Shown here: piece after piece, positions 4,641 through 15,100 of the stretch | How the letters are laid out: every line of letters begins with the position of its first letter | Position numbering within the stretch: the first letter of the stretch is position 1 | Origin: Dickeya chrysanthemi NCPPB 402 | GTDB lineage: Bacteria; Pseudomonadota; Gammaproteobacteria; Enterobacterales; Enterobacteriaceae | Assembly: GCF_000406105.1 (NCBI RefSeq) | Contig: NZ_CM001974.1 | Span: 3,677,010-3,741,009 of the forward strand | Reading direction: 5' to 3' | DNA: 64,000 nt | Notes under the pieces: generated by a model | The model's database searches: none | The model's input: only the letters and a program-made list of their open reading frames with translations | Told to the model about the DNA's origin: nothing | Position numbers and translations under genes: made by a program

Positions 4641-5619
4641 AAAACGCATCACCTCGATTGATGTCGCTCGCTGCGCCGGTGTTTCGCCATCGGCAGTGTC
4701 GCGCACGTATTCTGCGCCGGGCAAGGTCAGCCAGGCGACCCGTGCAAGGGTGCTGGCGGCGGCGGATGCGCTGGGCTATCGTCCCAATGCGCTGGCGCGG
4801 GCGCTGGTCAATTCCGGGCGACACGGCTCCGGCATCGTGGCGGTGGTGATGGGCGAATTCGATAATCCGTTCCAGCCCTGGCTGTTTAATCTGCTGACGC
4901 AGGCGCTACAACAACACGGTCTGGTGCCGATGCTGGTCAGCGTCACCGAACAGTGCGATATCCGCGCCCGGTTGCAGCAAGCGCTGTCATGGCAGGTGGA
5001 AGCGGCGATCATTTCTGCCGGTAGCCTGTCGCGGGAAACCACCGAGCGCTGTCTGGAGCTGTCGCTGCCGATGGTGTTGATGGGCCGGGAAGACCAGCGG
5101 GAAACCGTTACCGCGGTGCTGTCCGATAACCGGCTGGCCGGCGAACTGGCGGCCGACCATCTGATTTCGCTGGGGCTGACCCGGCTGGCCTATATCGCCG
5201 GTCGTCAGGATGGGCAGGCTTCGCTGGAACGGCTGGCGGGTTTTCGTCAGCGTCTGGTCAGCCGTGGTCGGCCGGAACCGATGGTAGCCGATAACCCGGA
5301 TTACGCTTACCACAGCGGCTACCGTGCTATGTGCCGCCTGCTGCAACGGCACCCGACGGTGGAAGGCGTATTCTGCGCCTGCGACGCGTTAGCCTTCGGC
5401 GCGCTGGATGCGCTCAGGCTAAACGGCGGCCCGGCCTGCACGGTGGTGGGATGCGATGATACACCGCAAGCTGCCTGGGAAGGCTACCGGTTAACCACGG
5501 TACGCCAACCGGTGGAGCAACTGGTGGCACAGGTGATAAGCCATCTGCAACGGGTGCTGAGCGGCGAAGCGCAACGCGGGGAAACCGTTCGTATTCAACC
5601 AACGCTTACCGTCCGTTAG
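4633..5619 (+). CDS. LacI/GalR family transcriptional regulator
   Basis: 328 residues. The N-terminal helix-turn-helix (SIDVARCAGVSPSAVSRTYSAPGKVS) and the hinge helix (YRPNALARALV) are typical of LacI/GalR, followed by a periplasmic-binding-like effector domain of normal length. The start at 4633 overlaps the hydrolase stop by 8 bases; longer readings of the frame run into that gene. As the last gene of the importer operon it most likely represses or activates the operon in response to the transported compound. Confidence 0.88.
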   Translation: MNKKRITSIDVARCAGVSPSAVSRTYSAPGKVSQATRARVLAAADALGYRPNALARALVNSGRHGSGIVAVVMGEFDNPFQPWLFNLLTQALQQHGLVPMLVSVTEQCDIRARLQQALSWQVEAAIISAGSLSRETTERCLELSLPMVLMGREDQRETVTAVLSDNRLAGELAADHLISLGLTRLAYIAGRQDGQASLERLAGFRQRLVSRGRPEPMVADNPDYAYHSGYRAMCRLLQRHPTVEGVFCACDALAFGALDALRLNGGPACTVVGCDDTPQAAWEGYRLTTVRQPVEQLVAQVISHLQRVLSGEAQRGETVRIQPTLTVR

Positions 5620-5624
5620 ACTCG

Positions 5625-5668
5625 CGGTTATCGGGCACGCATCGTCGCCCGAGAACCGTGCTCCTTTT
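5625..5668 (+). terminator. Hairpin terminator after the sugar ABC operon
   Basis: The arms CGGTTATCGGGC and GCCCGAGAACCG pair with one mismatch and are followed by a T-rich stretch (CTCCTTTT). The hairpin sits six bases after the LacI-type gene and ends just before the convergent LysR gene. Confidence 0.6.
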
Positions 5669-5678
5669 CCATCAGCCA

Positions 5679-6581
5679 TTATTCACGCCGTATCGGATGA
5701 TTGTGTTCCATAAAATCCAGAAAACGGCGCACCATCGGAATGCTGGCGCTGCGTTTAAGGTAGCTTACGGCAAAGGTACGGGTGATCGGCGTAGCGACCG
5801 GACGAATGGCGATATCGTACCCCTTCAGGCTGTTTGCCACCGAGGTGCACAGAAACACCACCCCACCGTGATGCATCACCAAATCCATAATGATGTCGAG
5901 ATTGCTGCACTCGCGAAAGCAGGTATCCGCCAGCCCGGCACGGCTGAACGCCGCCGACACCGCCGCATGTTCGCCGGTGCCTTTCTGCGGCACAATCGGC
6001 CGCTCCAGCGCCAATTGCTCCAGCGTCAGGCTGGGGTGCTCCGCCAGCGGATGGCCGGCCGCCATCACCGCCACCAGATTGTCATCCTGGAAAATGGTGT
6101 GATTAAACAGCGGATCCTGCAAATAATCATCAAACGGCGTAGAGAGCGACACGTGAATCTCGGCGTTTCGAACCTTTTCCAACAGGTCGCTGCTCACGCC
6201 ATCAATAAAAGACAACTCGATATTCGGGTGCTGTTTCTGAAATAGCGTAAACACATCGTAGTATGTCAACCGGTTGAAGATAGGAATCACCCCGACCATC
6301 AGGGCGCCATCCTGACTTTCTTCGTACGATTGCACAAATTGTTCTACATCATAATACTCGCGAATCAACGGCTTGATTTTTTCGTCAAACGCCTCGCCGA
6401 ATGGCGTTAACGCAAATTGCCGGGTGGTGCGATTAATCAGTTTTCGTTCCAGCTCCTGCTCCAGTCGGGATATTTCCTGAGAAAGAAAAGCCTGTGAGAT
6501 ATTGAGTGATTTAGCCGCACGGGTAAAACTCCCTTTCCGTACCAGCTCATGGTAATAGAGTGCTCGTTTTATACTTATCAT
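5679..6581 (-). CDS. LysR family transcriptional regulator
   Basis: 300 residues, the usual LysR length. The N-terminal winged helix (RALYYHELVRKGSFTRAAKSLNISQAFLSQEISRLE, recognised as the LysR pattern) is followed by a substrate-binding domain. It is divergent from the exported alpha/beta hydrolase at 6773, with a 191-base AT-rich gap that would hold both promoters, so the hydrolase is its likely target. The effector is not predictable. Confidence 0.87.
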   Translation of the reverse strand: MISIKRALYYHELVRKGSFTRAAKSLNISQAFLSQEISRLEQELERKLINRTTRQFALTPFGEAFDEKIKPLIREYYDVEQFVQSYEESQDGALMVGVIPIFNRLTYYDVFTLFQKQHPNIELSFIDGVSSDLLEKVRNAEIHVSLSTPFDDYLQDPLFNHTIFQDDNLVAVMAAGHPLAEHPSLTLEQLALERPIVPQKGTGEHAAVSAAFSRAGLADTCFRECSNLDIIMDLVMHHGGVVFLCTSVANSLKGYDIAIRPVATPITRTFAVSYLKRSASIPMVRRFLDFMEHNHPIRRE

Positions 6582-6772
6582 GATTATATTTATTTATAAC
6601 CTTACCGAATACTAATTATATTAACTTGCAAAAATACTAATGTGAGATTAAGCACATTTGCATTAATCCCAGCTATGATAGCCTGCATGATGACTTTTCC
6701 TGCGTTCGTCTACCTACTTGCATATTGATTCAAAAAACAATTCTTGGATAATAATTTTTTAAGGAATAATTC

Positions 6773-7747
6773 ATGCGTACCCCGCCACTCAAGATGATAC
6801 TGTTATCTTCCGTTATGATCGCCGGAGCCGCTCAGGTTACCAGTACGATGGCAGCAGACAACATCCATGAACTGACCCTGACCCCGCGCCAGCCGTCGGT
6901 TAAACTGATTTCCGACGTGGTTTACGCCCAGGTGCCGATTCGTGGCTACCCCAACGTCGCGTTGAAGATGGATATCCTGCAGCCGGAAGCCAAATCACCA
7001 CAGCCCGCCGTGCTGTTTATTACCGGCGGCGGCTTCGTTAACGCCAATAAAGACAACTACATCCAGCAACGGCTGAAACTGGCGGAAGCCGGCTACGTGG
7101 TCGCCAGCATGGAATACCGCGTCGCACCCACCGTGCTATTCCCGGCACCGCTGGAAGACGTGAAATCCGCCATTCGCTATCTGCGCGCCAACGCCGGTAA
7201 ATTCGGCATCGATGCCGGTCATGTGGCGGTGTTCGGCGCTTCCGCCGGCGGCTATCTGGCGGCATTCGCCGGCACGACCAGCGGCAACAAGCAATTTGAC
7301 CGTGGCGAACACCTCGATCAAAGCAGCCAGGTTCAAGCGGTGATCGACTTCTACGGCCTGTCGGACCTGACCCGCGTCGGCGAAGGCTTCCCGGACGAGG
7401 TAGTGCAGAAACACACCTCGCCGTCCGCCACCGAAGCGATTTGGGTCAACGGCACCGCGGTATTCAACGAGGGCGGCCCGATTACCCGCTTCCCGGAGAA
7501 AGCCGCCGCCGCCAACCCCATCAACTATATCAGCAAGAACACGCCGCCCTTTTTAATCATGCACGGCAGCGCCGATACGCTGGTTTCCCCGCGTCAAACC
7601 GAAATCCTGCACCGGGCGCTGGTAGCCCAAGGTATTAACAGCACCTATTACGTGGTGAAAGGTGCGGAGCATGGCGGCGTTTACTGGATGCAACCGGAAA
7701 TCATGCAGAAAGTGATTCAGTTTCTGGACCGTCAGTTGAAGCCATAA
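6773..7747 (+). CDS. Exported alpha/beta hydrolase (esterase/carboxylesterase-like)
   Basis: 324 residues with a Sec-type signal peptide (hydrophobic stretch MILLSSVMIAGAAQV, cleavage probably after TMAA). The catalytic triad is visible: Ser157 in GASAGGY, Asp268 in HGSADTLV and His300 in GAEHGG. The oxyanion motif reads TGGGF instead of the HGGG of hormone-sensitive-lipase esterases. Start at 6773 is supported by AAGGAA nine bases upstream. In the periplasm or outside the cell it would cut ester bonds, for instance on plant cell-wall substituents; the substrate is an inference. Divergent from a LysR regulator. Confidence 0.82.
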   Translation: MRTPPLKMILLSSVMIAGAAQVTSTMAADNIHELTLTPRQPSVKLISDVVYAQVPIRGYPNVALKMDILQPEAKSPQPAVLFITGGGFVNANKDNYIQQRLKLAEAGYVVASMEYRVAPTVLFPAPLEDVKSAIRYLRANAGKFGIDAGHVAVFGASAGGYLAAFAGTTSGNKQFDRGEHLDQSSQVQAVIDFYGLSDLTRVGEGFPDEVVQKHTSPSATEAIWVNGTAVFNEGGPITRFPEKAAAANPINYISKNTPPFLIMHGSADTLVSPRQTEILHRALVAQGINSTYYVVKGAEHGGVYWMQPEIMQKVIQFLDRQLKP

Positions 7748-7749
7748 CC

Positions 7750-7783
7750 GGCTGATCGTCATTAATGGCTGATAGTCATTAAT
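7750..7783. repeat. 17-bp tandem duplication after the hydrolase gene
   Basis: Two copies of a 17-base unit (GGCTGATCGTCATTAAT and the same with one change) lie back to back three bases after the hydrolase stop; a third, decayed copy follows to about 7799. Confidence 0.8.
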
Positions 7784-7805
7784 CAGTTGATCGCCATTTC
7801 GCTGA

Positions 7806-7831
7806 AACGCCTCGTTAGAGGCGTTTTTTTA
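7806..7831 (+). terminator. Rho-independent terminator of the hydrolase gene
   Basis: The arms AACGCCTC and GAGGCGTT form a perfect 8-bp stem with a GTTA loop, followed directly by seven T. Confidence 0.88.
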
Positions 7832-7849
7832 TTCTTCGCTTTTTATGTA

Positions 7850-7976
7850 TATACACAAAATAATTCGAGTTGCAGGAAGGCGGCAAGTGAGTGAATCCCG
7901 ATGAGCTTACTCAGGTAAGTGATTCGGGTGAACGAACGCAGCCAACGCACCTGCAACTTGAAGTATGACGGGTATA
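7850..7976. repeat. ERIC element, copy 1
   Basis: About 127 bases matching the enterobacterial repetitive intergenic consensus: the left end (AATTCGAGTTGCAGGAAGGC), the central palindrome around GAGCTTACTCAGGTAAGTGA and the right end (GCAACTTGAAGTATGACGGG). The central dyad reads CCCGATGAGC/GTGATTCGGG, so it carries compensating changes against the usual CCCCAGG/CCTGGGG type. Confidence 0.92.
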
Positions 7977-8102
7977 TACCCTAAATAATTCGAGTTGCAG
8001 TAAGGCGGCAATCGAGCGAATCCCCAGGAGCTTACACAAGTAAGTGACTGGGGTGAGTGAGGGCAGCCAACGCACCTGTAACTTGAAGTATGAAGGGTAT
8101 AG
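7975..8102. repeat. ERIC element, copy 2, in direct tandem with copy 1
   Basis: Nearly full consensus, including AATCCCCAGGAGCTTACA and AAGTAAGTGACTGGGGTGAG, the sites of the classic ERIC typing primers, and the right end ACTTGAAGTATGAAGGG. It abuts copy 1 and shares the TATACC junction, so the two form a head-to-tail array. Confidence 0.92.
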
Positions 8103-8551
8103 ACAAAAATAACGTACCGCGCGATTGAACTATTGCGCCACATCATTTTTATTCATTTTGGCCAGAAAAGGGTTTTATTATACAAATCAAAAAGACATAT
8201 TAACAACAAAAACAAACAACAAAAATAACATTAATAATAAAACTCACGACAATAATAACATTATTTTGGCCAGTTATCGTATTTTGCAATTATTTTTATC
8301 CGGATATACAAAAAGTTAAATGTGAAGCGCGCCACATATCCCGTCTGGTGCGCGTGTTCCAATTATTCCCATCAAGATATTTTATTTTCCGACACGCGTT
8401 ATTTTCAAACACCTCTTATTTTTAATATATGAGAATTGTTGTTATTCACTGTGCGCACTCATGACGGGTGAATAAGAAAATAAAAAGAGATTTATTGCAG
8501 AGCAGAGAGTCGTTGCTGCAAACCGATATTCGATTTCTGAAAGGTTATTTT
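8103..8551. other. AT-rich leader before the nrfCD-flavin reductase operon
   Basis: No convincing gene. The first half is very A/T-rich with many AAC/AAT runs; the second holds a possible CRP site and the ribosome site of the NrfC-like gene. Short open frames here have no ribosome site and no recognisable protein character. The AT-rich composition contrasts with the GC-rich genes on either side and fits a regulated promoter region. Confidence 0.6.
8321..8336. promoter_or_regulatory. Possible CRP (or FNR-like) operator
   Basis: TGTGA AGCGCG CCACA matches the CRP consensus TGTGA-N6-TCACA in nine of ten positions. It lies about 215 bases before the NrfC-like start, upstream of a plausible promoter. 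Only sequence similarity supports it. Confidence 0.4.
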
Positions 8552-9250
8552 ATGGAAAATTACACCCGACGCCGTTTTATTGCCATTATGGGCAGTGCGC
8601 TGGCCGTTTCCGGCAGTGGTTTGCCGGCCGCCGCGCAGGAAACCACGGCGCCTTCCGTCGGCCCGCGCCCCGTCAAATACGGCATACTGCACAACGAGCT
8701 GCGCTGCATCGGCTGCAAAGCCTGTATGACCGCCTGCCGTAAAACCAACCAGGTGCCGGAGGGCGTCACCCGGCTGGATATCATACAAACCGTCGATATC
8801 CCCGCCACCGACACCAGTAAACCCGTCAAACAGTTCTTTCGTCAGTCTTGTCAGCACTGCGATAACCCGCCCTGTGTGTCCGTTTGCCCGACCGGCGCGT
8901 CGTTCAAAGACGCACTGACCGGCATTGTCGACGTCAACGACAAACGCTGCGTCGGCTGCCGCTACTGCATCGCCGCCTGCCCGTACCACGTACGCTTTAT
9001 CAACCCGGTAACCAATACCGCGGATAAGTGCAATTTTTGTCGGGAAACCAATCTGGCGGCCGGCAAAAGACCGGCTTGCGTCGAGATCTGCCCGACCAAG
9101 GCGCTGGTATTCGGCGACCTCAACGATCCGGACAGCGATATCTCGAAAATGATCAAAAGCAATCCTATCTACCGCAGCAAAGTCTACCTGGGCACCGGCC
9201 CCAACCTTTACCGCATACCGGGTAAATACGGAGAGAGCGATCATGCATGA
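8552..9250 (+). CDS. nrfC: Tat-exported NrfC-like protein with four [4Fe-4S] clusters
   Basis: 232 residues, close to E. coli NrfC in size and sequence (LHNELRCIGCKACMTACRKTN, SCQHCDNPPCVSVCPTGASF, VGCRYCIAACPYHVRF, ADKCNFCRETN). The twin-arginine signal TRRRFIAIMGSAL begins at residue 5. I start at 8552, where GAAAGG lies upstream; the open frame from 8468 would push the Tat signal inside the protein. Sixteen cysteines in four groups bind the clusters, which carry electrons from the NrfD-like quinol dehydrogenase. No nrfA or nrfB cytochrome follows; a flavin reductase does. It overlaps the next gene by eight bases. Confidence 0.88.
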   Translation: MENYTRRRFIAIMGSALAVSGSGLPAAAQETTAPSVGPRPVKYGILHNELRCIGCKACMTACRKTNQVPEGVTRLDIIQTVDIPATDTSKPVKQFFRQSCQHCDNPPCVSVCPTGASFKDALTGIVDVNDKRCVGCRYCIAACPYHVRFINPVTNTADKCNFCRETNLAAGKRPACVEICPTKALVFGDLNDPDSDISKMIKSNPIYRSKVYLGTGPNLYRIPGKYGESDHA

Positions 9251-10199
9251 TGCCTTTCATTTTCATTCGCTGGTGTGGGACTGGCCGATCGCCGTTTACC
9301 TGCTGTTGGTGGGGATCTCATCCGGGATGATGGTGTTGACGTTGCTGTTTCGCCGCTACCTGCCTGCGGAAAATCAACACGCCAACCCGTTGATTACCGC
9401 CACGGCGATCGTCGCGCCGCTGTCGGTGGTAGTCGGGCTGGTTATCCTGATTTTCCACCTCGCCCGCCCCATCACCTTCTGGTATTTGATGATTTTCTAT
9501 AATCCCCATTCCATCATGTCGCTGGGGGTAATGCTGTTTCAGGTGTACATGCTGGTGATGTTCCTGTGGCTTGCCAGCCTGTATCGCCAACCGCTGCTGG
9601 CCTGGAGCGAACACCGGTTGCCGGCAGCATTGCACGCGTTGCTAAACCGGGTGGTCGCCCTGGTCACCCGCGGCATACGTCCGGTGGAAAATGTGCTGCT
9701 GGTGCTGGCGTTGCTGCTCGGCTGCTACACCGGCTTTTTGCTCTCGGCGTTGAAATCGTTCCCGTTGCTGAATAACCCGGTGTTGCCGGTGCTGTTTCTG
9801 GTGTCCGGCGTCACGTCCGGCATCGCGGTGTTGATGATGGTCGGCACCTCGGCGCGTAGCCGACGTGATTGCCCGCAGACTCTGCACCTGTTGCACCACC
9901 TGGAAAAACCGGTCGCCTTGATCGAGCTGTTCCTGCTGTTTGCTTTCTTCATCGGCCTGATGCTGGGCGGCGGCCAGAAAGCGGTGGCGGCGCAGGTTGC
10001 GCTGAGCGGATTCTGGGGTGGTGTATTCTGGATCGGTATTATCGGCCTCGGCATGCTGGCGCCGCTGGCGGCGGGCAGCCTGCCTGCAATGCAACGCCGT
10101 ATCACCGCCCTGCCGCGCATCGCCGCCGGCCTGACGCTGCTGGGCGTGTTCCTGCTGCGGTTGTTCGTGCTGTATGCCGGCCAGATGACGGTAGCCTGA
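9243..10199 (+). CDS. nrfD: NrfD/PsrC family membrane quinol dehydrogenase subunit
   Basis: 318 residues, the same length as E. coli NrfD and with shared blocks (FHSLVWDWPIAVYL, LSALKSFPLLNNPVLPVLFL, RLFVLYAGQMTVA). About eight to nine membrane helices. In Nrf and polysulfide reductase systems this subunit oxidises menaquinol at the periplasmic side and passes electrons to the NrfC-type iron-sulfur protein. Here the pair probably feeds the flavoproteins at 11.6-13.6 kb. The stop is two bases before the MFS gene. Confidence 0.88.
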   Translation: MHDAFHFHSLVWDWPIAVYLLLVGISSGMMVLTLLFRRYLPAENQHANPLITATAIVAPLSVVVGLVILIFHLARPITFWYLMIFYNPHSIMSLGVMLFQVYMLVMFLWLASLYRQPLLAWSEHRLPAALHALLNRVVALVTRGIRPVENVLLVLALLLGCYTGFLLSALKSFPLLNNPVLPVLFLVSGVTSGIAVLMMVGTSARSRRDCPQTLHLLHHLEKPVALIELFLLFAFFIGLMLGGGQKAVAAQVALSGFWGGVFWIGIIGLGMLAPLAAGSLPAMQRRITALPRIAAGLTLLGVFLLRLFVLYAGQMTVA

Positions 10200-10201
10200 C
10201 C

Positions 10202-11575
10202 ATGACCGGCCCACGCGCACTCTTCTGGCTGGCTTCGGTGGCGTTCTTCATGCAAGCGCTGGACACCACCATGCTGTACGTCGCCGTACCGGCGATAGCA
10301 CGCTCGTTACACCAGCCGGTCCTGCGTATGGAGCCGATCGTCATGGCGTATGTCATCACCGTCGTGGCCTTTACCCCCATCAACAGTTGGCTGAGCCAGC
10401 ATCTGGGAGAGCGCCGCACTTGTCTCGCCGCCCTGACTGTCTTCACCGGCGGCGCGCTGCTGTGCTTCCATGCCGACACCGCGTTTCAACTGGGTTTGGG
10501 CCGTTTTATTCAGGGCGCCGGCGGCGCGTTGCTGCTGCCGGTGATTCGCACGCAAGTTCTGCGATACACCCCCGCCGACACCCGGCTGTCGTTCCTCAAC
10601 CGTATGACCTTGCTCGGCATGTTCGGCACGCTGACCGGGCCGCTGCTGGGTAGCCTGCTGACCGACGGATTATCCTGGCGCGCCATTTTTATCGCGCCGG
10701 TTCCGCTGGCGCTGCTGTGCCTGTGGCTGGCGTGGCGCATCCTGCCGGCGGATACCCACGCCAGTCGCTGCCGGGTTTCGATGGGCAACCTGCTGCCGCT
10801 GGTCGGCATTCTGCTCACGGTCACCCTGCTGCTGGCGGCGGCGCCGCGCCATTTGTTGTCGCTGCCGGTCATGGTGCTGCTGGGTCTGGCCGGCATCCTG
10901 TGCACCTTGTGCTACCTGCGTAGCGATCCGCCGGGGCGTGAAGCGTTGCTGCCGGTTTCGCTGTTCGGCATTCGTTCCTTTTATGTCGGCGTCTGGGGCG
11001 GCGTGCTGACCCGGTTACTGCTGGCTTCGCTGCCGGTGGTGATGTCGCTGGTAATCCAGACGTCGCTGGGCCTGCCGCCCGCGACCGCCGGGCTGATCAT
11101 GCTGATGTTTTCGGCTGGCGCGCTGCTGGCCAAACTGATGTTCGAACCGCTGATTCGCTGGCTGGGTTACCGTAACGTGCTGATGTACGGCACGTTGCTG
11201 GCCTCCGCACTGGTCCTGCTGCTGGGTCTGGCCATCCAGCACCGCTTACTGCCGGTGATTGGCCTCTGCGCCGTCGCTATTGGCCTGATGACCGCGTTGT
11301 TGCACTCGGCGGAAAGCACGCTGGCCTGTTGCCACCTGAACAGCGACACCTACAACAGCGGCAATAACATCATGATTCTCAGCCAGTTGATTGCCGTCAT
11401 GCTCAGCATGGCGCTGACTTTCCCGGCGCTACGCCTGTTTTCTCAATGGGAACCGCTGCTGAACATCAACCACTTTAGCCTGCTGCTGTTACTGCTCGGA
11501 ACCGGATTACCGCTGAGTTGCCTGTTGTTTCGCCACCTCAGCCATGAAGAAGGGAAAACGTTGCTGGCGCGCTAG
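10202..11575 (+). CDS. MFS transporter of the 14-helix drug/organic-anion type (MdtD-like)
   Basis: 457 residues and 12-14 hydrophobic helices, with the family start pattern (FFMQALDTTMLYVAVPAIARSL), the loop LSQHLGERR and the motif C-like GPLLGSLLTDGLSWRAIF. The ATG at 10202 is two bases after nrfD; the longer open frame upstream is an nrfD shadow. Standing inside the redox operon, it more likely moves the substrate or the reduced product of the reductase than a drug. That role is inferred from position only. Confidence 0.8.
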   Translation: MTGPRALFWLASVAFFMQALDTTMLYVAVPAIARSLHQPVLRMEPIVMAYVITVVAFTPINSWLSQHLGERRTCLAALTVFTGGALLCFHADTAFQLGLGRFIQGAGGALLLPVIRTQVLRYTPADTRLSFLNRMTLLGMFGTLTGPLLGSLLTDGLSWRAIFIAPVPLALLCLWLAWRILPADTHASRCRVSMGNLLPLVGILLTVTLLLAAAPRHLLSLPVMVLLGLAGILCTLCYLRSDPPGREALLPVSLFGIRSFYVGVWGGVLTRLLLASLPVVMSLVIQTSLGLPPATAGLIMLMFSAGALLAKLMFEPLIRWLGYRNVLMYGTLLASALVLLLGLAIQHRLLPVIGLCAVAIGLMTALLHSAESTLACCHLNSDTYNSGNNIMILSQLIAVMLSMALTFPALRLFSQWEPLLNINHFSLLLLLLGTGLPLSCLLFRHLSHEEGKTLLAR

Positions 11576-11622
11576 CCTGCTGCGGGTTCCTGTTTATTGA
11601 TGATGTCAACCAAACAGAGTGA

Positions 11623-11976
11623 ATGCACGTTATGAAGAAAAGTTCCATCAAATTATTGGGTTGCCTGTTGCTGATCGCCGGGGCGGCCGTCGCCGAAGAC
11701 CAGTTTAAAGCCGGAACCTACTCTGCGACCGGACAAGGCATCGGCGGTGACGTGACGGTCACTCTGGATATCGATGCCAAAGGCGTGGTGCAAAAAGCCA
11801 CTATCGATGCACCGAACGAAACCCCGGAAGTCGGCGGGGAAGCGGCCAAAGAACTGGAGAAAACCATGACGGAGAAAAAGACCATCAGCGTCGATGGCGT
11901 CTCCGGCGCCACCATGACCAGCGGCGCGGTGCATGAGGCCTCACAGGCGGCCTACGCCAAAGCCAAAGCGAACTGA
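11623..11976 (+). CDS. Small periplasmic FMN-binding-domain protein (covalent flavin carrier)
   Basis: 117 residues: a signal peptide (LLGCLLLIAGAAVAE) and one FMN_bind domain. The flavinylation motif DGVSGATMTS is complete, so Thr97 should carry FMN attached by the ApbE transferase, as in NqrC, RnfG and UrdA-type reductases. In most fumarate/urocanate-type flavin reductases this domain is fused to the FAD subunit; here it is a separate protein, placed just before that subunit. It would be the electron relay between the NrfC-like protein and the FAD enzyme. An alternative ATG at 11632 would shorten it by three residues. Confidence 0.85.
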   Translation: MHVMKKSSIKLLGCLLLIAGAAVAEDQFKAGTYSATGQGIGGDVTVTLDIDAKGVVQKATIDAPNETPEVGGEAAKELEKTMTEKKTISVDGVSGATMTSGAVHEASQAAYAKAKAN

Positions 11977-12038
11977 ATACCGGACGACGCGCCGAACACC
12001 GACGCGTCATTCCACGCGTAAAATAAAAGGAAAATAAT

Positions 12039-13610
12039 ATGGTTCAATACCGAAAAAAACTCCTTGCGGCTCTGTGCCTCTCGGTACTGGGAATCACGTC
12101 CGCTCAGGCATCAGGGCAACCCGAGCCTGCCGCCGAGCCGGCTAAAAACGCCGAATCGGCCAAACCGGTCGAGATCCCCAAGAGCGCCGACGTGGTCGTG
12201 ATCGGTGCAGGCGCTGCGGGTACGGCGGCCACTATGGCGGCGGCCGAGAAAGGCGCCAGCGTGGTGTTGCTGGAGAAACAGCCCGCCGTCGGCGGTACCG
12301 GCAATTTCGCGGAAGGTATCTTCGCGGCCAACAGTTCGATGCAGAAACGCCAGGGTATCGTGGTTACGCCTGATATGGCCTTTAAGACCATCATGGAATA
12401 CAGCCACTGGATGGCGAACCCGTATGTGGTTCGCACCTTCGTCAATCGCTCCGCCGACACCATCGAATGGGTGAAATCCAAAGGCATCAAGTTTGAATAC
12501 ATCGGCCCCGGCGGGCCGGGCGGAATGCTGACCTGGCACGTTATCGACGGCCCCGGCCACGGTCGTTACCTGATCAAAACCTTCCATGAGCAGTTTAAAA
12601 ACATGAAGGTTACGACGTTGGTGAAAACCGCGGGTAAAGACCTGGTGATGAAAGACGGCAAAATTACCGGCGTGATCGCTGAAGGCAGCGACGGTAAACC
12701 GTTCCAGATCGACACCAAAGCGGTGATCGTCGCCACCGGCGGCTATGCCAACAACAAAGAGATGCTGCAAAAATACGTCGCCATGCCCGACACCATCATG
12801 GTGGGCAACATTGGTAAAGACGGCGACGGCATCAAAATGGCGTGGAAAGCCGGTGCAAAAGAAGAAGGCATGGGCGTGGTGCAGTCTTATCGCCCTGGTC
12901 TGCCGGAGTATGCCCCTAACTCCCAGATGCTGGCCGCGGCTCGCCAGCCGTACCTGTGGGTAGACAAAACCGGACGCCGCTTCACCGATGAATCCATCGT
13001 CATCATTTGGCCGCACGCCGGTAACGCGCTGGCGAAAGCGGGCGGCGTGATGTATTCCGTCTTTGACGAGGAAACCCGCAAGCACGTGGTCAACGACGGT
13101 ATCGATGTGCCGATCGGCGAATGGGTCATCGCCAATACCAAGCTGGTGAAATTTGACGACGAGTTCGCCAAAGAGAGCCAGAAAAACCGGGGCTTTGTCT
13201 TCAAAAGCAACAGTATTGAAGACCTGGCCAAACAGATGGCCGTCGACCCGGCCGTGCTGAAACGCACCATTGAAGACAACAACCGCTATGCGGCGCAGAA
13301 ACGCGACGAAGTCTTCAACAAAAACATGGACTATCTGCGCCCGGTGAAAACCGGTCCGTTCTATGCCGTGAAGATGATGCCGGCCGCGCTCGGTACGCTC
13401 GGCGGCGTGAAGATTAACGAGAAAATGGAAGCCGTCAGCCCGACTGGCAGCGCGGTGCCTGGCCTGTACGTCACCGGTAACGATGCCGCCGGTATGTACG
13501 GCGACACCTATGACTTGCTGTTGGGCGGCGGAACGTTCGGCTTTGCGCTCAACTCTGGTCGCATGGCCGGCGAAAACGCTCTCGATTACATTCATTTCAG
13601 CGCGAAGTAA
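12039..13610 (+). CDS. Periplasmic FAD-dependent reductase of the fumarate/urocanate reductase superfamily
   Basis: 523 residues: a signal peptide (LLAALCLSVLGITSAQA), a low-complexity E/P/A linker to about residue 45, then the FAD_binding_2 domain with the dinucleotide motif VVVIGAGAAG and the ATGGYANNKEML loop. The substrate-binding arginine loop is kept (GRRFTDES, about residues 310-317). The region that in soluble fumarate reductases reads GGVHGANRLGG, with a catalytic His and Arg, reads GMYGDTYDLLLGGG here (about 485-498), so fumarate is an unlikely substrate. No heme or FMN domain is fused; the FMN protein before it would reduce it. The acceptor is unknown, probably a 2-enoate. Confidence 0.83.
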   Translation: MVQYRKKLLAALCLSVLGITSAQASGQPEPAAEPAKNAESAKPVEIPKSADVVVIGAGAAGTAATMAAAEKGASVVLLEKQPAVGGTGNFAEGIFAANSSMQKRQGIVVTPDMAFKTIMEYSHWMANPYVVRTFVNRSADTIEWVKSKGIKFEYIGPGGPGGMLTWHVIDGPGHGRYLIKTFHEQFKNMKVTTLVKTAGKDLVMKDGKITGVIAEGSDGKPFQIDTKAVIVATGGYANNKEMLQKYVAMPDTIMVGNIGKDGDGIKMAWKAGAKEEGMGVVQSYRPGLPEYAPNSQMLAAARQPYLWVDKTGRRFTDESIVIIWPHAGNALAKAGGVMYSVFDEETRKHVVNDGIDVPIGEWVIANTKLVKFDDEFAKESQKNRGFVFKSNSIEDLAKQMAVDPAVLKRTIEDNNRYAAQKRDEVFNKNMDYLRPVKTGPFYAVKMMPAALGTLGGVKINEKMEAVSPTGSAVPGLYVTGNDAAGMYGDTYDLLLGGGTFGFALNSGRMAGENALDYIHFSAK

Positions 13611-13630
13611 CGCCTGAAATCCTACCTGTC

Positions 13631-13652
13631 GTCCCCCACGCCGTGGGGGACT
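13631..13652 (+). terminator. GC-rich hairpin after the flavin reductase gene
   Basis: GTCCCCCA and TGGGGGAC form a perfect 8-bp stem with a CGCCG loop; only three T follow, so termination may be partial. It separates the redox operon from the convergent alkB. Confidence 0.6.
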
Positions 13653-13692
13653 TTCACACTTTACGAAACGTCTTCACACTTTACGAAACGTC
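13653..13692. repeat. Perfect 20-bp tandem duplication at the 3' end of alkB
   Basis: The unit TTCACACTTTACGAAACGTC occurs twice in a row. The copy at 13673-13692 holds the last codons and stop of alkB; the second copy lies beyond the stop. Confidence 0.92.
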
Positions 13693-14333
13693 AGATTCAG
13701 GCGCACCTCATCGGACATTCCCATCGGCAGCGGCCCGCGTTTTAGCGGCAAAATCGCGTGATAATTCAGCCGGGACGCACCGCCCCACACCACCACATCG
13801 CCGTGCATCAGCGCCAAGCGCCGGCACGAATCGCTGCGTTTCCTCCCACCGAACAGAAACACCGCGCCTAACCCCAGCGAAACAGAGACGATCGGCTGGC
13901 GCAAATCCCGCTCATCCCTGTCCTGATGCAACGACAGCTTGGCACCAACGGCGTAACGGTTAATCAGGCAGGCATCGGGCGCAAACCCGTCATACCCGGC
14001 CTCGTGCGCCGCCGCCTGCGACAAGCGCAAAAAGCACGCCGGTATGGCAGGCCACGGTTCGCCGGTCAGCGGATCCTGCGCACTGTAGCGATACCCCAGC
14101 TCGTCGCTCACCCAGCCTAGCGGCCCGCAATTACTCATCGCCACCGACATGGTGTACCCGCCCGGCGTCACCATCTGCCGGAAAGGGGCTTGTTGCGTCA
14201 CCGTTTCCAGCGCGGCCAGCAGCTCGTCGGCCTGTGACCAGGCAAAGCCGCGCAACCACATCGCACCGGGTGCCAGCGTTTCATTGCGGCGTTCCGGCGG
14301 CTCATCGGTAAACAGTTCGAAATTCATGCACAA
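13674..14333 (-). CDS. alkB: DNA oxidative demethylase AlkB
   Basis: 219 residues, clearly AlkB: MVTPGGYTMSVAMSNCG, DACLINRYAVGAKLSLHQD, IVSVSLGLGAVFLFGG, GDVVVWGGASRLNYH. Iron is bound by His and Asp of LHQDRDE and the later His of NYHAILP; the RLNLTFRKV end matches the 2-oxoglutarate-binding arginines of the family. It removes methyl groups from 1-methyladenine and 3-methylcytosine using 2-oxoglutarate and oxygen. Unlike E. coli it is not next to ada; it is divergent from a 3-methyladenine glycosylase gene, with 92 bases between them. A second ATG six bases in could also be the start. Confidence 0.95.
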   Translation of the reverse strand: MCMNFELFTDEPPERRNETLAPGAMWLRGFAWSQADELLAALETVTQQAPFRQMVTPGGYTMSVAMSNCGPLGWVSDELGYRYSAQDPLTGEPWPAIPACFLRLSQAAAHEAGYDGFAPDACLINRYAVGAKLSLHQDRDERDLRQPIVSVSLGLGAVFLFGGRKRSDSCRRLALMHGDVVVWGGASRLNYHAILPLKRGPLPMGMSDEVRLNLTFRKV

Positions 14334-14425
14334 ACCTGTTCAAATAACCAGTAGAATTGAGTATATATCTCTTCACAGAGCATTGCCTGCTGAAATCAAT
14401 CGCCAATCATTAAGGATGCCAATCA

Positions 14426-15100
14426 ATGACGCCATCTTCCCTCCCGTTCGACGAACCTCAGGCTCTCGCCCATTTGTCCGCGATTGATGCGCACTGGGCG
14501 CGGTTGATCGACGGCGTCGGTCATATTCGCTTTGAGAGCCGCCCGGCGCGGGAACCTTACGAGGCGCTGATCCGGGCAGTCGCCAGCCAGCAGCTCAGCA
14601 ACCGCGCCGCCGCCGCGATCATCAGCAAGCTACAGCAACGTTTTGCCGTAGGGGAAAACGGTTTTCCCGCCGCCGAACAACTCGCGACATGTGAAGCGGA
14701 GATCCTACGCCAGTGTGGTTTTTCCGCCCGTAAAATCGACACGGTGAAAGGCATTGCACAGGGCGTACTGAGCGGATTGGTACCTGATAGAGCGGCAGCC
14801 GAACATCTGGATGACGACACGCTGATCGAACGGCTTTGCACCTTGAAAGGCATCGGTCGCTGGACGGTAGAAATGCTGTTGATCTCCACGCTGGAGCGGA
14901 TGGACATCATGCCGGTGGACGATCTCGGCATCAAACAAGGGTTTCGTTACCTGTATCGTCTGCCGCAGGACCCGACGCGTAAAGCGATGTTGGCGCTGAG
15001 CGAACCCTGTCGCCCCTACCGCACGTTGGCGGCCTGGTATTTGTGGCGCATTCCCCATATGCCGGATTACGCCGAATACCGGGCATCGTTACGTCAGTAA
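14426..15100 (+). CDS. DNA-3-methyladenine glycosylase II family protein (AlkA/Mag-like)
   Basis: 224 residues of the HhH-GPD superfamily without the N-terminal AlkA domain, closer in size to yeast Mag1-type enzymes. The helix-hairpin-helix and catalytic region reads LKGIGRWTVEMLL...MPVDDLGIKQGF; the second Asp of VDD (Asp166) is the expected catalytic residue. It cuts out alkylated purines, while the divergent alkB reverses other alkyl lesions, so the pair forms a small alkylation-repair locus with one shared promoter region. The ribosome site (AAGGATG) lies before 14426. Confidence 0.88.
   Translation: MTPSSLPFDEPQALAHLSAIDAHWARLIDGVGHIRFESRPAREPYEALIRAVASQQLSNRAAAAIISKLQQRFAVGENGFPAAEQLATCEAEILRQCGFSARKIDTVKGIAQGVLSGLVPDRAAAEHLDDDTLIERLCTLKGIGRWTVEMLLISTLERMDIMPVDDLGIKQGFRYLYRLPQDPTRKAMLALSEPCRPYRTLAAWYLWRIPHMPDYAEYRASLRQ

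Follow-up and report, generated by a model that had tools for sequence, protein, structure and literature searches.

In nitrite reduction, NrfC, which carries four Fe-S clusters, and the eight-helix membrane protein NrfD draw on quinol (PMC12285233). Here we examine a 64,000-nucleotide stretch of Dickeya chrysanthemi NCPPB 402 (contig NZ_CM001974.1; genome size about 4.7 Mb, assembled as 21 contigs), hereafter the window, in which nrfC- and nrfD-like genes are followed by genes for a transporter of the major facilitator superfamily (MFS), a single-domain FMN_bind protein and a FAD_binding_2 enzyme. The five genes are intact, lie on the plus strand at 8552–13610, and are located as a preliminary description, made from the letters of the DNA alone, had placed them. 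Together they probably encode a heme-free, quinol-dependent periplasmic reductase chain. The NrfC and NrfD proteins resemble those of the NrfABCD nitrite reductase in the four clusters and the eight helices, and the present NrfD exceeds a curated family cut-off. The differences lie in the partners: the genome has no match to NrfA and the locus no NrfB, the NrfCD pair belongs to a separate branch, and it stands with the MFS, FMN_bind and FAD proteins instead.

Several other systems are close to parts of this locus. In UrdA and the FMN-bearing fumarate reductases, FMN attached at an ApbE motif feeds a FAD_binding_2 domain, an arrangement and a fold that the present proteins appear to share. There, the FMN and FAD domains are on one chain, whereas here they are separate genes; in addition, the present FAD protein lacks three residues of the FccA type, and a predicted quinol oxidase shares its operon. 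FMN and FAD domains on separate genes have been recorded before. A survey of flavinylation lists 189 clusters in 171 genomes in which the gene of a FAD_binding_2 enzyme is at most two genes away from an FMN-binding gene (Meheust et al. 2021, PMC8238504), so that fusion of the two domains is common and not, as the preliminary description held, the rule. The survey also describes heme-for-flavin exchange for fumarate reductases; its main text does not mention NrfC or NrfD, which are present here (PMC8238504). The Mrd/Mcc system of Geobacter sulfurreducens AM-1 likewise combines a separate exported FAD reductase and a small soluble carrier in one operon (PMC4427408), a likeness of organization drawn without comparison of the Mrd sequence. 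Its carrier is a multiheme cytochrome, whereas here it is an FMN_bind protein and no frame at window positions 5000–15000 has multiple CxxCH motifs; the carrier between menaquinone and Mcc is not known there, whereas NrfCD is encoded alongside here (PMC4427408). Finally, VprA of Lactiplantibacillus gives the best model for the present FAD protein, and LysR regulation, here putative, is common to both; the difference is that the score is 406.5 bits against a cut-off of 600 and that VprA is listed as EC 1.3.1.74 (PMC10295242). No report joining NrfCD to a flavinylated partner was found in the open-licence literature, as represented by titles, abstract openings and passages of the likeliest papers. 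We know of no exported FMN or NrfCD partners of VprA.

A separate NrfCD branch with flavoprotein partners

We used the FAD protein as the query in a scan of named genomes, which returned 22 loci, 15 of them enterobacterial and distributed over six genera (Dickeya, Pectobacterium, Brenneria, Symbiopectobacterium, Serratia and Edaphovirga). All five genes occur in the same order in 14 of the 15. Frames are broken in four of the 14 (in L016 it is the MFS gene; the others are L018, L019 and L022). The remaining locus, from Pectobacterium aroidearum (L024), is decayed and retains no more than parts of the FAD gene. In the other seven loci (Deferribacteraceae, Desulfopila and five clostridial records, two of them short) there is no match to NrfC, NrfD or the MFS protein. 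Among 246 genomes of the family, 14 contain a match to the FAD protein at an E-value of 1E-60 and ten have the five genes in the order of the window; five of these ten are the same records as named loci. The FAD-matched places outside the genome under study number 22, of which 21 were fetched (G167:C1:164137 was excluded). The FAD protein is 97% identical to a D. oryzae protein and also 97% identical to a protein named D. zeae. The five-gene order is conserved far beyond chance, and more strongly than the preliminary description, which had proposed looking for it in other genomes, could have known. That description had named a lack of joint conservation in relatives as a refutation of its proposal; the five genes are in fact conserved together.

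NrfC begins with MENYTRRRF, a twin-arginine start as judged by eye, and its 16 cysteines are kept in 14 of 14 module rows. It scores 329.7 bits against the NrfC equivalog model (TIGR03149), under the cut-off of 377.6, and NrfD scores 399.9 bits against its own (TIGR03148), over the cut-off of 347.6. The NrfA family (PF02335) has no match in the genome, with a positive control in E. coli, and frames with two CxxCH motifs, as in an NrfB-type multiheme protein, are absent from window positions 5000–15000 and from the 14 module loci.

We then ask with which genes NrfD occurs elsewhere in the family. With NrfD as the query, 61 rows in 53 of the 246 genomes represent 60 loci, one gene being split over two rows. 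Forty-five of the 60 read as nitrite type. Multiheme proteins are encoded in the fetched region of all 45, and in 44 they include one whose size and heme motifs are NrfA-like; in the remaining locus (L131) the frame with four CxxCH motifs is 637 amino acids long. The other 15 loci are of the module type, with an MFS gene, and FMN and FAD genes are present too in 14 of them. The exception (L135, genome G114) keeps NrfCD and MFS with no FMN or FAD gene within the 14 kb read; this locus and the decayed P. aroidearum locus represent loss in progress. The MFS gene adjoins NrfD in 14 of the 15; the exception is L067, with 3.6 kb between the two and with the flavin genes likewise at a distance of 3 to 4 kb. 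Four genomes (G022, G048, G151, G241) hold both a module and a nitrite-type NrfCD.

A tree of NrfC plus NrfD was built from 58 rows (57 of 59 loci and the window; L067 and L138 gave no usable pair). One branch, with support of 100/100, divides the 14 module rows from the 44 nitrite rows. Under midpoint rooting, the true root not being known, the module NrfCD stand beside nine enterobacterial nitrite NrfCD (100/99). This separate branch, one lineage with a standing set of other partners, argues that NrfCD is not at the locus by accident.

The flavin partners themselves vary. In Edaphovirga a second module (L062, 7420–12782) has split FMN and FAD genes in the order FAD-NrfC-NrfD-MFS-FMN with a Crp-type regulator adjoining; the same genome also holds a module of the window type and a nitrite nrf locus. 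Two further loci (L071, L072) combine NrfCD and MFS with fused FMN-FAD enzymes and have sigma-54 activators nearby. L067, probably from Musicola by a 95% match, encodes the MFS protein and NrfD together with an FMN/FAD gene of the fused type that spans two open frames; no NrfC was seen there. In a tree of the FAD proteins, the enzymes of the window type, of L062 and of the fused kinds are in different places, which suggests either that one NrfCD-MFS unit can serve different FAD enzymes or that the enzymes have been exchanged. Thus, this NrfCD branch is tied to FMN and FAD proteins, in split and fused forms, and occurs without NrfA or NrfB. In L061 and L070, related FAD genes have genes for OprB-type porins next to them.

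The FMN protein and the position of the carrier

The FMN_bind protein (PF04205, 50 bits) has a Sec-type start by eye, and the only solved chain that it matches is 8p2b. Its sequence D91-G-V-S-G-A-T97-M-T-S agrees with the flavinylation consensus D-x-x-[S/T]-G-A-[S/T], in which FMN is attached to the last residue (PMC12052999). The motif, reported already in the preliminary description, is indeed there, on a protein of one domain; it is intact in all 14 FMN genes of the named loci and in nine of the ten five-gene family genomes, the window included. A putatively exported ApbE is also present in the genome, outside the operon: there are two ApbE genes approximately 280–290 kb downstream, one with a lipobox-type start (by eye) and one without. 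Klebsiella similarly has a lipoprotein ApbE and a signal-less ApbE, the latter needed for its soluble fumarate reductase (PMC12052999). In D. chrysanthemi the signal-less copy (L006) adjoins an OYE-FMN_bind-FAD gene of the soluble fumarate-reductase type. That gene (L006:6057-8848, minus strand) is split into two overlapping frames in the assembly, by decay or sequencing error.

In the Desulfopila and Deferribacteraceae loci, a tetraheme cytochrome c of 117–124 amino acids is encoded directly before the FAD gene, at the position of the FMN gene, and the FAD proteins of these loci form the sister clade of the window FAD protein. The preliminary description had called the usual tetraheme cytochrome missing. 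It is absent, and the two sister loci make replacement the better description. A distant relative on a long, uncertain branch (L068:6237-8974) encodes a NapC/NirT tetraheme quinol dehydrogenase, the FAD enzyme and a tetraheme cytochrome c3. These loci suggest that quinol dehydrogenase and carrier come in two kits, NapC with tetraheme cytochrome c (one case) and NrfCD with FMN.

Neighbouring genes and the acceptor

The features of the locus are collected in the table. The LysR gene and the esterase upstream are part of the conserved neighbourhood: every one of the 14 named five-gene loci has LysR, though in L018, L019 and L022 the gene is broken or incomplete, and 12 of the 14 have the esterase. 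Between the esterase and nrfC (7847–8096) are two tandem imperfect palindromic repeats of 125 nucleotides, 86% alike.

Table. Features of the locus; positions are numbered from the first letter of the window.
Feature	Position	Strand	Remarks
nrfC-like ferredoxin, four predicted [4Fe-4S] clusters	8552..9250	+	232 aa; twin-arginine start
nrfD-like quinol-binding membrane subunit	9243..10199	+	318 aa; 8 hydrophobic segments; TIGR03148
MFS transporter, DHA2/MdtD-like	10202..11575	+	457 aa
Single-domain FMN_bind protein, Sec-type start	11623..11976	+	117 aa (114 aa if ATG 11632 used)
Flavinylation motif D91-G-V-S-G-A-T97	11893..11913	+	T97, predicted FMN attachment residue
FAD_binding_2 enzyme, VprA/flavocytochrome-c superfamily, Sec-type start	12039..13610	+	523 aa
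Match to Rfam RF02741 (Rev44 antisense RNA, soft-rot bacteria), opposite FAD gene	12764..13099	-	
Alpha/beta esterase, BD-FAE family, signal-type start; conserved neighbour	6773..7747	+	324 aa
LysR-type regulator, divergent from esterase; conserved neighbour	5679..6581	-	

Some hints point to a plant phenolic as the acceptor, perhaps, and do not settle it. BD-FAE, which gives its name to the family of the neighbouring esterase, is a feruloyl and acetyl xylan esterase (PMC8165983), and Dickeya dadantii secretes a feruloyl esterase (PMC9007343). The genome encodes a phenolic acid decarboxylase, the type of enzyme that makes vinylphenols (PMC10295242). Such a decarboxylase is found in six of the ten five-gene genomes versus 58 of the 236 others (Fisher test, p-value 0.02, kinship ignored).

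The preliminary description had the MFS protein carry the acceptor, for which we find no support. Among NCBIfam models the protein scores best with MdtD (184.7 bits against a cut-off of 426) and with the EmrB group (99.8 bits against 230), both of the DHA2/MdtD exporter type and both under their cut-offs. By these scores it is related to exporters without being proven to be one, and its role is probably export. Since the reductase looks exported, no importer would be needed.

The RF02741 match opposite the FAD gene scores 187.4 bits, just over the gathering threshold of 178. Five of the seven loci scanned have a match: the scores are 371–376 bits in two Pectobacterium loci (L010, L012), 276 in Brenneria, 261 in Serratia and 182 in D. 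oryzae, with no match in L008 from D. undicola or in L016. In P. atrosepticum a 336-nt antisense RNA to ECA0910 has been checked by RT-PCR under the label fwd_44 (PMC4710047). The equal length of 336 suggests that the RF02741 match corresponds to this RNA, although the labels differ and ECA0910 is a putative counterpart of the FAD gene. In Dickeya the match may reflect only conservation of the coding strand.

Proposed electron path and its alternatives

The conserved unit, the separate NrfCD branch tied to FMN and FAD proteins, and the lipobox-type ApbE are together best read as a relay in which electrons pass from quinol to Fe-S clusters, then to FMN and finally to FAD. As a dedicated partnership this relay is well supported. 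The gene content and its conservation, the exchange of partners, the motif and the lack of three fumarate-reductase residues are what the sequences show; export, flavinylation, the flow of electrons and its direction, the acceptor and the role of the MFS protein we infer. The preliminary description had proposed the same chain, which remains the best reading, ending in an organic acceptor, with enoates as candidates, carried by the MFS protein, an ending that finds no support. In the proposed path, NrfD would oxidize (mena)quinol and pass electrons to the four Fe-S clusters of NrfC, which would in turn reduce the small soluble FMN protein. The lipoprotein-type ApbE encoded elsewhere would have attached the FMN covalently to Thr97 of this protein. 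The FMN protein would stand where NrfB or a tetraheme cytochrome stands in related systems and would feed the exported FAD enzyme. The latter would reduce a C=C bond in its acceptor, which is probably bound without a carboxylate anchor; our guess is a plant phenolic of the hydroxycinnamoyl ester or vinylphenol type. The MFS protein would probably be an exporter, either of an acceptor that the cell itself makes or of a product that is toxic.

A number of observations weigh against this picture or against parts of it. The FAD protein (PF00890, 211.5 bits; Sec-type start by eye) has the vinylphenol reductase VprA (NF053717) as its best NCBIfam model among 85 families matched, at a score well short of the cut-off. 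VprA is also the best model for ten of ten relatives scanned, whether split, fused, cytosolic or heme-linked (259–391 bits), so that it marks a large branch and not a substrate. The folds with the lowest rmsd to the FAD protein are ketosteroid and cyclohexanone dehydrogenases (2.7–3.3 Å), which leaves the direction of the reaction open. In G167 the FMN gene (L059:7235-7618) has SGS for SGA in a five-gene set that is otherwise intact, and in D. chrysanthemi ApbE lies outside the operon and is not linked to it. We find no convincing FNR site upstream. The esterase is absent from two of the 14 five-gene loci (L013 and L016), and the decarboxylase is not required, being absent from four of the ten five-gene genomes.

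It is possible, if on balance unlikely, that the five genes serve detoxification and not respiration, disposing of a plant alkene or phenolic that is toxic and yielding no useful energy, while the MFS protein expels product or substrate. The scores of the latter against DHA2/MdtD drug exporters, the LysR regulator and esterase as neighbours, and a host that lives in plant tissue all fit this explanation, and VprA of Lactobacillus is likewise controlled by a LysR regulator (PMC10295242). A quinol-oxidizing membrane module would be a costly addition to such a pathway. The two heme-type sister loci also speak for respiration: Desulfopila and Deferribacteraceae are groups of anaerobic respirers.

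The chain might also run in reverse, with the FAD enzyme as a periplasmic dehydrogenase, similar to the ketosteroid and cyclohexanone dehydrogenases whose folds it approaches most closely, and NrfCD feeding the quinone pool. We consider this rather improbable. The structural Z scores are equally high for flavocytochrome c and UrdA, the best NCBIfam model is a reductase, and the module NrfCD group with the nine nitrite NrfCD of the midpoint-rooted tree, which are quinol oxidizers.

Still less probable is a classical respiratory enoate reductase of the UrdA/fumarate type in which the FMN domain is merely on a separate polypeptide. The superfamily is the same, and FccA chains and UrdA top both the phmmer list and the structural lists for the FAD protein; its score against the flavocytochrome c model (TIGR01813) is 227.4 bits, under the cut-off of 285.45. 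We aligned the FAD protein with 33 relatives (20 of 120 listed proteins and 13 locus proteins). Arg402, His504 and Arg545 of FccA are kept in none of the 34 rows, whereas a paralog in the same genome keeps all three; the Arg402 column is near a gap, and its exact aligned partner is uncertain. We take Arg402 to be the acid residue and the other two to be substrate residues. Their absence makes a UrdA or enoate enzyme unlikely, and the "UrdA-type" reductase and "enoates" of the preliminary description are not supported.

The missing NrfA-family match and the flavin-free L135 might suggest that nrfCD is what remains of a nitrite reductase operon since lost, with unrelated flavin genes beside it. 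Such a chance neighbourhood is hardly credible when the order is kept in six genera, the NrfCD branch and MFS occur with split and fused flavin enzymes alike, and four genomes have a nitrite nrf locus besides.

Returning to the relay from quinol to FAD, it is tempting to speculate, quite tentatively, that, in the enterobacteria, an NrfCD branch departed from nitrite reduction a single time and turned into a plug-in quinol dehydrogenase serving periplasmic respiration by flavins only. A single covalent FMN, instead of cytochromes, would link it to several different FAD reductases. Soft-rot bacteria might in this way respire neutral or phenolic alkenes from macerated plant tissue. If the relay is real, a membrane donor would be named for a group of FMN/FAD reductases of the periplasm that usually have their donor encoded at another place or are without a known one, and an Fe-S quinol dehydrogenase could pass electrons to a covalent flavin with no heme between. 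It would also provide a testable exchange of carriers, tetraheme cytochrome for FMN protein, within one enzyme lineage, and would point to an unrecognized electron acceptor of soft-rot bacteria in oxygen-poor plant tissue.

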